Source: Pedobacter cryophilus
GTDB taxonomy: Bacteria; Bacteroidota; Bacteroidia; Sphingobacteriales; Sphingobacteriaceae
Direction of reading: 5' to 3'
DNA: 64,000 nt
NCBI RefSeq assembly: GCF_005116455.1
Contig: NZ_SWBP01000001.1
Location: 1,116,001-1,180,000 of the forward strand
Every line of letters begins with the position of its first letter. The first letter of the stretch is position 1. The translations under genes were made by a program, and so were the position numbers. The notes beneath the pieces were generated by a model that saw only the letters and a list, made by a program, of their open reading frames with translations, ran no database searches and had not been told where the DNA came from. Shown in pieces: positions 35,015-37,617 of this stretch.

Positions 35015-35231
35015 TTTTAACAATGTTTTTGTTGGTTTATTGGGTATTTATTTCTAAAATAAAATGTTAAAAATTTCTAACACATGGGCTAATTTAAGCA
35101 ATATTGATAAACTAATAGTACAAGATTAAACGTAATTAAATATGAGATTTAAATCTCCTTTTCTGAATTTTTTTATGAATTTTTTTGCCTTTTAATTTTA
35201 ACAACCTTTAAAAATGAAAAGTAATAGCAAC

Positions 35232-35265
35232 AAAAAAGGTTAGACATTTAAATATCTAACCTTTT
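35232..35265 (-). terminator. Rho-independent terminator of metK
   Basis: 11-bp stem AAAAGGTTAGA/TCTAACCTTTT with a partly paired loop, followed on the minus strand by a six-T run. It is 27 bases after the metK stop. Confidence 0.88.
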
Positions 35266-35292
35266 AAAATATTTAGCTAAAGCTGTATATGA

Positions 35293-36546
35293 TTATAAGC
35301 CAAACTCGGCTTTAACTTGATCTACAAAGTCTAATTTTTCCCAAGTAAATAATTCCACTTCTAATTCTTTCACTTCGCCGTTTGCACCGTAAAAAGTCTT
35401 TTTAACAACTTCGTTGGTACGTCCCATGTGGCCATAAGCAGCAGTTTCTGAATAAATTGGGTTTCTCAATTTTAAACGTTGCTCTATAAAATAAGGGCGC
35501 AAATCAAAAATCGCTTCTACTTTTCTAGCAATTTCGCCATCAGTTAAATTCACTTTAGCAGTTCCTTTAGTGTCAACAAAAACACCACAAGGTTTTGCCA
35601 CGCCAATAGCGTAAGAAACTTGTACTAAAACCTCATCAGCAACACCAGCAGCTACTAAATTTTTGGCTATATGACGAGTGGCATAAGCAGCAGATCTATC
35701 TACTTTTGATGGGTCTTTACCAGAGAATGCACCACCACCGTGAGCGCCTTTTCCTCCGTAAGTATCCACAATAATTTTTCTTCCGGTTAAACCAGTATCA
35801 CCATGTGGGCCACCTATTACAAACTTTCCGGTTGGGTTAATATGGTAAGTAATTTGATCATTAAATAAGGTTTGCAGTTCTGCTTTAAGAGATGCTTTTA
35901 CTCTTGGAATCAAAATAGAAATAATGTCTTTCTTGATTTTTGCCAACATGGTAGCTTCCTCATCAAAATCATCATGCTGTGTAGAAATTACAATGCTATC
36001 AATTCTAATAGGTTGATGATCATCATTATACTCAATAGTTACCTGAGATTTTGCATCAGGTCTTAAATAATCGATTTCTTTGTTTTCTCTGCGTAAAGCG
36101 GCAAGCTCTATTAATAATTTATGAGCAAGATCTAACGCCAAAGGCATGTAATTATCGGTTTCATTAGAAGCATAACCAAACATCATTCCTTGGTCGCCAG
36201 CACCTTGCTCTTCTGGATTAGAACGATCTACCCCTTGGTTAATGTCTTGAGATTGATCATGAATAGCAGAAAGAATTCCACAAGAATTAGCTTCAAACAT
36301 GTATTCAGATTTGGTATAACCAATTTTTCTGATCACATCTCTAGCTATTTTTTGAACATCTAAATAAGTTTTAGATTTTACCTCGCCAGCTAAAAACACT
36401 TGTCCGGTAGTTACTAATGTTTCACAAGCAACTTTAGAGTTTTTATCAAAAGCTAAAAAATTATCAATTAGTGCATCCGAAATTTGGTCTGCAACTTTGT
36501 CTGGGTGTCCCTCAGATACAGATTCTGATGTAAATAAATAAGGCAT
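35293..36546 (-). CDS. metK: S-adenosylmethionine synthetase
   Basis: Makes S-adenosylmethionine from methionine and ATP. At 417 residues it is slightly longer than the usual 380-400. Hallmarks: [21 protein letters not shown] at the N-terminus (catalytic His; quoted as SVSEGHPDK), [44 protein letters not shown] (in parts, YGGKGAHGG) and [12 protein letters not shown]. Its leader carries a probable SAM-II riboswitch, fitting feedback control by the product. Single gene with its own terminator, divergent from a lipid kinase. Confidence 0.97.
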
Positions 36547-36614
36547 ATTTAAATTTTTAAATTTATCTAATAAAAACTATGAAGGATTGCAAATTAAAGG
36601 TGCTGATGCAGTGA

Positions 36615-36666
36615 GGCTTTAGCAATTTTTTTACGTGGTTGCAATCGTTTCAAATCATTCCACTTT
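36615..36666 (-). promoter_or_regulatory. Probable SAM-II riboswitch in the metK leader
   Basis: Read on the minus strand: GTGG (36663-36660), then TGATTTG, a 9-base stretch, TTGCAACCACGT closing the GTGG/CCAC P1 stem, an A-rich L3 run, and GCTAAA (36623-36618). GTGG..TGATTTG..CCACGT..GCTAAA is the conserved skeleton of SAM-II aptamers, which bind S-adenosylmethionine, and L1 from GATTTG to TTGC has the expected 16 nt. The GC of TTGC can pair with the GC of GCTAAA (pseudoknot core). Caveat: the usual second pseudoknot pairs (ACC with GGU) are not evident, and two extra bases follow the 5' P1 strand. Confidence 0.75.
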
Positions 36667-36674
36667 AATGATTG

Positions 36675-36682
36675 CAAAGGTA
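36675..36682 (-). promoter_or_regulatory. -7 element for metK
   Basis: TACCTTTG, a full TAnnTTTG match on the minus strand, sits about 12 bases upstream of the riboswitch P1. Transcription would start just before the aptamer, about 125 bases upstream of the metK ATG. A clear -33 element is not seen. Confidence 0.6.
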
Positions 36683-36720
36683 TAACAATTTTTATTTTAT
36701 GGAAAAAATAGAATTACTTT

Positions 36721-37617
36721 GTGCATAATTTAAATTTTAAATTTTTGAAAAAGAGGATCCTTTTTATTGTTAACCCAATTTCTGGCGGATTAAACAAAAC
36801 TTTTTTCCCCTCTTTGTTAGATCAGTACTTAGACCATTATCTATTTAATGCGGAAATAGTTTTTTCTGAATACAATGGCCATGCTATGGCATTAGCAGCA
36901 AACGCTGTAAAAGCTAATTTTGATATTATAGTGGCTGTTGGTGGAGATGGAACTATCAATGAAGTAGCTTCTGAAGTGGAATCATCTGGTAAAATAATGG
37001 CAATAATTCCTTGCGGATCTGGCAATGGGCTAGCAAGAACATTAGGCATTCCTTTAAATAATATTAAAGCTATTCAAAGAATTAATTTGTTAAATACCAC
37101 TAAAATAGATGCTGGTATTTTTAACGGAAAGAAATTTTTTAACATGGCAGGTATGGGTTTTGATGCGCATATCAGTGCAATTTTTGCCGGAAATCATAAA
37201 AGAGGATTTAAAGGGTATATAAAAACTACTTTAAAAGAAATCTCAACTTATAAGCCCGAACGGTATATTATTGAAATTGATGGAGAGCAGTTTGAGCGGA
37301 CAGCTTTTATGTTAAGTATTGCCAATTCTTCTCAATATGGTAACAATGCGCATGTTTCTCCAACGGCGTCATTAAAAGATGGTTTACTGGATTATTGTAT
37401 AATAAAGCCTTTTTCAATGTATGCATTCCCAGCATTAGGTTTCAGAATGTTTGCTAAATCTGCTCAATACTCTAAATATGTAGAAATTATTAAAGGAAAA
37501 CAGGTGAGTATTATAAGAGACAAAAGTGGCCCAGTTCATTTAGACGGAGAGCCATCAATGATGGATAAAGATCTGTTGATAACTGTTAAGCATCTGGCCT
37601 TAGAATTGGTTATTTGA
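36721..37617 (+). CDS. Diacylglycerol/lipid kinase family protein (YegS-like)
   Basis: 298 residues. ILFIVNPISGGLNK is the family N-terminus, VGGDGTINEVASE carries the nucleotide-binding GGDGT signature, and PCGSGNGLARTLGIP and FNMAGMGFDAHISA complete the DAGK catalytic domain. SPTASLKDGLLDYCIIKP opens the C-terminal beta domain and HLDGEP closes it. It phosphorylates a lipid such as diacylglycerol at the inner membrane. The start is uncertain: the GTG used here directly follows a degenerate -7 sequence, and a TTG at 36745 (giving KKRILFIVNP at the N-terminus) is equally credible. Confidence 0.88.
   Translation: MHNLNFKFLKKRILFIVNPISGGLNKTFFPSLLDQYLDHYLFNAEIVFSEYNGHAMALAANAVKANFDIIVAVGGDGTINEVASEVESSGKIMAIIPCGSGNGLARTLGIPLNNIKAIQRINLLNTTKIDAGIFNGKKFFNMAGMGFDAHISAIFAGNHKRGFKGYIKTTLKEISTYKPERYIIEIDGEQFERTAFMLSIANSSQYGNNAHVSPTASLKDGLLDYCIIKPFSMYAFPALGFRMFAKSAQYSKYVEIIKGKQVSIIRDKSGPVHLDGEPSMMDKDLLITVKHLALELVI

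Follow-up and report, generated by a model that had tools for sequence, protein, structure and literature searches.

SAM-II riboswitches have been known from the Bacteroides group since 2005 (PMC1273637), and those with long loops have been listed as belonging to Bacteroidetes and marine sequences (Weinberg et al. 2010, PMC2864571). Reviews present as the standard SAM-II model a direct occlusion, whereby the ligand-bound pseudoknot covers the ribosome-binding site of the downstream gene. The textbook mechanism relies on hiding a Shine-Dalgarno sequence, and this phylum is reported to be naturally devoid of such sequences (PMC6847099). The aptamer family being known, the interest of the present locus would lie in its expression platform; a conserved, re-targeted anti-aptamer arm provides a concrete and cheap test of how the SAM-II copies of this phylum act. 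In a full-text literature search we found no description of a distal anti-aptamer platform for SAM-II in Bacteroidota; one may stand in the supplement of the 2010 paper.

The window analyzed here is a stretch of 64,000 nucleotides from Pedobacter cryophilus (contig NZ_SWBP01000001.1, positions 1,116,001 to 1,180,000), for which a SAM-II riboswitch ahead of metK had been predicted. The explanation that best accounts for the whole of our results is that a SAM-II aptamer and a competing arm in the linker probably act together, such that SAM would repress metK. As metK makes SAM, repression triggered by SAM is what is to be expected.

The SAM-II aptamer of the metK leader

The gene and the elements of the aptamer region are as follows.

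35293-36546, minus strand: metK, S-adenosylmethionine synthetase, 417 aa, taken from the list of open reading frames and presumably so named, as judged by its conserved N-terminal start; at most 85% identical to relatives among the best 80 kept
36609-36669, minus strand: SAM-II (long loop) aptamer, RF01726, matched at full length (model positions 1-60 of 60)
36675-36682, minus strand: promoter box TACCTTTG, which we take to be the -7 element of Bacteroidota type, 11 nt before P1
36660-36663, minus strand: 5' strand of P1, GUGG, from the RF01726 alignment
36635-36638, minus strand: 3' strand of P1, CCAC, from the RF01726 alignment
36651-36656, minus strand: L1, GAUUUG, conserved in the RF01726 alignment and presumably the groove-binding loop of SAM-II
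36641-36644, minus strand: 5' strand of the pseudoknot helix P2a, UUGC, whose GC/GC pairs are invariant wherever letters are present in 38 aptamers; we assume from the SAM-II structure that it faces GCUAA
36619-36623, minus strand: 3' strand of P2a, GCUAA, from the alignment of 38 aptamers
36646-36649, minus strand: 5' strand of P2b, AACG, weak, with 2 of 4 pairs to CCUC (36616-36613)

The metK leader matches RF01726 with 62.6 bits against a gathering score of 44 (Rfam 15; E = 1.1e-9 over the 64 kb window), and this full-length match, the only one that any Rfam family gives in the whole window at the gathering threshold, supports the SAM-II aptamer originally predicted. The covariance model named in that prediction was a different one, RF00521 (SAM_alpha), which scores 20.2 bits against a cut-off of 36, too low for it to be the family of this aptamer. 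Read 5' to 3' on the minus strand, the leader carries TACCTTTG (36682-36675), GUGG (36663-36660), GAUUUG (36656-36651), UUGCAACCAC (36644-36635), an A-run and GCUAAAG (36623-36617), so that every quoted element of the SAM-II skeleton is in place, with metK, a gene of the SAM pathway, directly downstream. The two bases inserted after P1, which had been regarded as odd, are odd with respect to RF00521 alone, as the consensus of RF01726 shares this spacing.

Compensatory changes in P1, on which the prediction had been made to depend, are present among relatives: of the 38 aptamers aligned, 23 have U-A as their second pair, 14 have A-U and one is gapped there, and 99.3% of all P1 cells are paired in this alignment, which comprises 38 of 53 distinct short-loop aptamers and includes one row (L137) that is misaligned in P1. 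The second pseudoknot helix, which had been described as not evident, is kept as P2a and retained in part as P2b, where the window has two of four possible pairs and 5 of 17 genus leaders have all four. Counted in one fixed register over 200 leaders, two P2b pairs are the commonest outcome (76 leaders), followed by three (66), fewer than two (30) and four (28); across 97 distinct strand pairs, strands taken from the same leader form on average 2.19 pairs as compared to 1.86 after shuffling, a value reached in 0 of 2000 shuffles. The copy in the window presumably binds SAM.

Of 200 leaders, 182 have a TAnnTTTG box no more than 40 nt upstream of P1, and in 180 of them this box ends 8-19 nt before P1, as against 227 of 9980 bins of 40 nt (2.3%) with the pattern on one strand of the own genome; the proximity of the box to P1 places the aptamer, by prediction, right at the 5' terminus of the RNA. 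Further upstream, CAAAGTAATTCTA (36711-36721 in the window) is kept in many genus leaders, and its reverse complement carries a TTACTTTG box on the plus strand (36714-36721), probably the promoter of a divergent gene whose open reading frame is listed from 36721.

The aptamer belongs to a catalogued family and is ordinary in its lineage, as follows from its broad occurrence in genus and family and from the earlier records of SAM-II in Bacteroides and Bacteroidetes. Of 18 genus genomes (own genome included), 17 gave RF01726 matches, and among the genomes sampled more widely, 379 of 399 did so in the family (283 above the cut-off) and 26 of 198 in the phylum. Twenty family genomes, including one from the genus of the window, gave no match (G013, G020, G024, G035, G048, G060 and others); seven of these, searched again at E <= 1, yielded weak matches only in six cases and none in the seventh. 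All 118 parsed leaders of 119 family loci read have metK downstream of the aptamer, at a distance from GCUAA to AUG of 61-217 nt (median 82), and the roughly 70 nt that had been noted as odd, 70 nt from GCUAAAG to AUG, are thus correct and normal for the lineage. A further 101 loci came in part from the phylum search (21) and in part from named metK relatives (80), and the motif precedes metK in 57 of them (19 and 38, respectively); a pattern search of these loci found no SAM-II motif in 41, a number that includes misses, given that the pattern overlooked at least two of the 21 covariance-model loci (L133, L149), and three had no start. In Flavobacterium leaders (L150-L152, L157, L159, L160, L162, L166 and others), CAACC is separated from GCUAA by an insert of some 45-50 nt, hairpin-like in places, because of which simple SAM-II pattern searches miss them.

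Complementarity between linker and aptamer

The stretch between aptamer and metK would constitute the expression platform, and three features are relevant to it.

36547-36616, minus strand: linker and proposed expression platform, 70 nt, with a C-rich, G-poor 5' part and no intrinsic terminator
36585-36592, minus strand: proposed anti-aptamer arm UUGCAAUC in the linker, from folding and leader comparison
36639-36646, minus strand: aptamer strand GAUUGCAA, target of the arm, from folding and leader comparison

When the window leader is folded without SAM, the aptamer strand GAUUGCAA is predicted to pair with UUGCAAUC of the linker at a probability of 0.68-0.81, an interaction that would take apart P2a. 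The window sequence by itself lends this arm no significance, and a claim based on it was rejected: the fold of the whole leader has a z of 0.12, the aptamer-linker duplex compares with shuffled ones at p 0.198, and 8 of 20 shuffled linkers fold equally well with the aptamer. The linker likely holds an anti-aptamer arm all the same, and comparison with relatives makes the stronger case for it.

Leaders were dereplicated at 80% linker similarity, which lessens the kinship between them and does not remove it. The aptamer reads GAUUGC in 81 of 86 dereplicated Sphingobacteriaceae leaders, and the exact complement occurs in 20 of these 81 linkers, the mean of 180 permuted hexamers being 1.0; with at most one G-U pair the count rises to 32 against a mean of 3.8, the true hexamer ranking first in both cases. 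Scanning hexamers along the aptamer in all 86 leaders likewise gives the highest ratio of seen to expected complements at GAUUGC (32 seen, 6.8 expected). In the 61 leaders that have no exact complement, one-base variants that keep pairing through a wobble are found 12 times (3.8 expected) and those that break it 16 times (13.2 expected); 13 of the latter (6.1 expected) lose the outermost pair only and three (7.1 expected) break the helix inside. A second set of 38 dereplicated leaders, 35 of them outside Sphingobacteriaceae by record title or search, reproduces the enrichment, with exact complements in 12 leaders (first of 180, the mean being 0.5) and complements with at most one G-U pair in 19 (mean 1.8, rank 1). 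A result against the arm is that the matching GCAAGC is absent from all eight dereplicated leaders with GCUUGC in the aptamer, five of which belong to the family set and three to the second set.

Other tests presuppose no particular hexamer. In 29 of 96 and 15 of 35 leaders, the best duplex between aptamer and linker is superior to those of shuffled linkers at p 0.05; in 63 of 96 and 27 of 35, the linker binds its own aptamer better than it does foreign aptamers on average; and aptamer plus linker fold better than all 20 versions with shuffled linkers in 44 of 131 leaders, with 6.2 expected. Less favorable to the arm is that the increase in leaders whose longest helix has at least 8 bp is only modest (64 of 131 against 41.0 expected). 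When aptamer segments were assessed separately in 118 leaders, with about six expected at p 0.05, the GAUUGCAACC segment gave 29 and the GCUAA segment 18, the latter mostly in genera g14 and g17, and the 5' segment of P1 and L1 gave nine and the A-run segment five. Arms of the type UUUUUAC directed to the A-run are striking by eye in several genera, yet GUAAAA and UAAAAA reach just 1.1-1.3 times expectation in the hexamer scan, and for this reason we do not claim A-run complementarity as general. Complementarity to GAUUUG is exact in 7 of 38 leaders (rank 1 of 60) and ranks third of 60 when one G-U pair is allowed. Also against the arm, RNAalifold returned the aptamer hairpin without it, both for 16 of 17 genus leaders (L017 left out) and for 15 leaders from elsewhere in the phylum, the latter chosen by hand from 54 outside Sphingobacteriaceae, 14 of them with short inserts. 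The enrichment of linker-aptamer complementarity across the lineage is a computed result; competition between arm and aptamer in vivo is inferred.

Several leaders that have no GCAAUC show an arm aimed at another strand of the aptamer.

Leaders L196 and L227: re-targeted arm GUCAAAUCU against AGAUUUGAC
Leader L223: re-targeted arm AAUCAAAUC against GAUUUGAUU
Leader L228: re-targeted arm AAAUCCUUCC against GGAAGGAUUU
Leader L172: re-targeted arm CUUUAGCAUU against AAUGCUAAAG
Leader L080: re-targeted arm UUUAGCACUUUU against AAAAGUGCUAAA

Pairing of GAUUUGAC with GUCAAAUC, or of GCUAAAG with CUUUAGC, is seen in other leaders. Genus g14 has two types of leader, sorted by eye according to their hairpin, and in each of them RNAalifold finds a downstream hairpin with no structure being given: in the first (18 of the 41 g14 loci read) it pairs GCUAA itself, and in the second (16 g14 loci plus L153) it pairs the A-run and AAGUG, leaving CUAA in the loop; L258, of the second type, was not parsed, and six of the 41 loci had no usable core or start. 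In the first type, 96.0% of hairpin cells are paired, a share that falls to 20.6-51.7% once the partner is slid; at the outermost position, 7 of 18 leaders have G-C and another 7 have U-A, with one U-G, two unpaired and one gap, which amounts to a double compensatory change. A small second hairpin (CCUG..CAGG and variants) was seen by eye to recur downstream of the anti-aptamer hairpin in L119, L236-L256 and L153, that is, in genus g14 and in one Pedobacter record.

A proposed path from SAM binding to repression of metK

The reading we favor would work as follows. The metK transcript would begin just upstream of the SAM-II aptamer; when SAM is scarce, UUGCAAUC of the linker would pair back on GAUUGCAA, dismantling P2a and with it the strand of the SAM pocket, and metK would be expressed, whereas with SAM bound the pseudoknot would hold, the arm would be freed and metK would be shut down, amounting to product feedback. 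For the OFF step, the freed C-rich, G-poor linker might be exposed, in the manner of a rut site, to Rho, with termination as the outcome.

The preconditions for such a step can be read from the leaders. Over its first 45 nt the linker has 27.5% C and 9.8% G in 86 leaders, and 25.1% C and 11.3% G in 54 others; by C minus G, the window linker ranks 4 of 131 among the leaders of its own genome (the metK leader being excluded from the background), and the 95th percentile of this background of window-genome leaders is surpassed by 61 of 118 family leaders. A comparison of C-richness between named metK leaders with and without SAM-II gave p 0.49 and is flawed, as the pattern by which they were sorted missed Flavobacterium leaders with an insert before GCUAA. 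The genome has a rho gene. To stand in for the SAM-bound state, the aptamer was taken out of the fold, and accessibility was computed in this manner for 124 of 131 leaders: the unpaired fraction of the linker goes from 0.42 to 0.59 when the aptamer is locked, in part because its pairing partner has been removed, and the predicted openness of the start region changes by a mean of -0.004, with 11 of the 124 leaders losing more than 0.1. As regards intrinsic terminators, no terminator-like site was found in the window leader (36450-36800) and one in 131 dereplicated linkers. About 30 nt downstream of metK (approximately 35230-35270, minus strand) there is an inverted repeat, GGTTAGA...TCTAACC, followed by a T-run, which came to light in the alignment of a weak L20_leader match and is probably the intrinsic terminator of metK; this genome thus appears to employ intrinsic terminators, of which there is none in the leader.

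Among the other ways in which the leader might act, the textbook one, in which the SAM-bound pseudoknot would cover the ribosome-binding site of metK, might draw some encouragement from Sinorhizobium meliloti metA, where a SAM-II riboswitch reportedly controls translation 74 nt downstream (PMC9373788), and from the minority of leaders whose start region closes on locking. It is an unlikely account here, given that the phylum has no Shine-Dalgarno sequences, that the AUG stands 70 nt off in the window (with the median of 82 nt already given for the family) and that mean openness is unchanged, which also led us to reject a general masking of the start codon; nor does a ribosome-binding site lie inside or next to P2, where direct occlusion requires it. 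A SAM-dependent intrinsic terminator in the linker, of the kind reported for many proteobacterial SAM-II leaders, is nearly refuted by the terminator counts and may be considered extremely improbable. SAM might, alternatively, expose the linker to cleavage by an RNase and thereby act through mRNA decay, a scheme for which the literature mentions riboswitches of dual action, exposing an RNase site, and with which the greater predicted openness of the linker, partly due to partner removal as it is, would agree; we consider it improbable, on a par with direct occlusion.

It could also be that the aptamer is real and the complementarity no platform at all, GCAAUC being kept as a binding site for a protein or small RNA or simply by descent, and the remainder being chance in AT-rich sequence. 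The lack of significance of the arm in the single leader and the absence of a matching arm in all eight GCUUGC leaders fit such a reading, which is nonetheless rather unlikely in view of the enrichment of wobble-compatible variants while internal pairing-breaking ones are not enriched, of the several unrelated arms that target different aptamer strands, and of the double change in the g14 hairpin. Returning to the competing arm, termination by Rho in the exposed linker is our first choice for the OFF step, with mRNA decay or an indirect influence on initiation ranking behind it, because folding does not predict a general masking of start codons, hardly any intrinsic terminators occur and the linker, once freed, offers much C and little G; it is put forward tentatively, as the least certain part of the scheme, on the basis of these sequence preconditions. 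The broader proposal that SAM-II has been rewired in this phylum from occlusion of the ribosome-binding site to a distal switch, with arms independently re-targeted to GAUUGC, GAUUUGAC and GCUAA and with SAM exposing the linker to Rho, is possible and, taken as a whole, on the doubtful side.

Comparison with known systems

Ligand control of Rho-dependent termination has reportedly been found in riboswitches by Hollands and co-workers in 2012, ligand binding there being said to expose a stretch of the leader to Rho. The logic proposed for metK, with a ligand exposing the leader to Rho, would be the same as in those riboswitches, which differ from it in aptamer class and phylum. With Sinorhizobium meliloti metA, the locus has in common a SAM-II aptamer far from the start codon (74 nt there), whereas control of metA is reported to need a Shine-Dalgarno sequence inside the riboswitch (PMC9373788), a kind of sequence that the phylum of the window naturally lacks (PMC6847099). 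RF00521 (Corbino et al. 2005, PMC1273637) shares the core GUGG..GAUUUG..UUGCA.CCAC..GCUAAAG and a promoter close upstream of P1; the platforms reported for it, occlusion of the ribosome-binding site or putative intrinsic terminators, are in contrast not predicted in the metK leader. The sequence of the window copy, its P1 and P2a, its phylum and its full-length match to the model all agree with RF01726 (PMC2864571), from which it departs in its compact loop and weak P2b; the 60-position model stops at the aptamer, and the linker, with its proposed arm, lies outside it.
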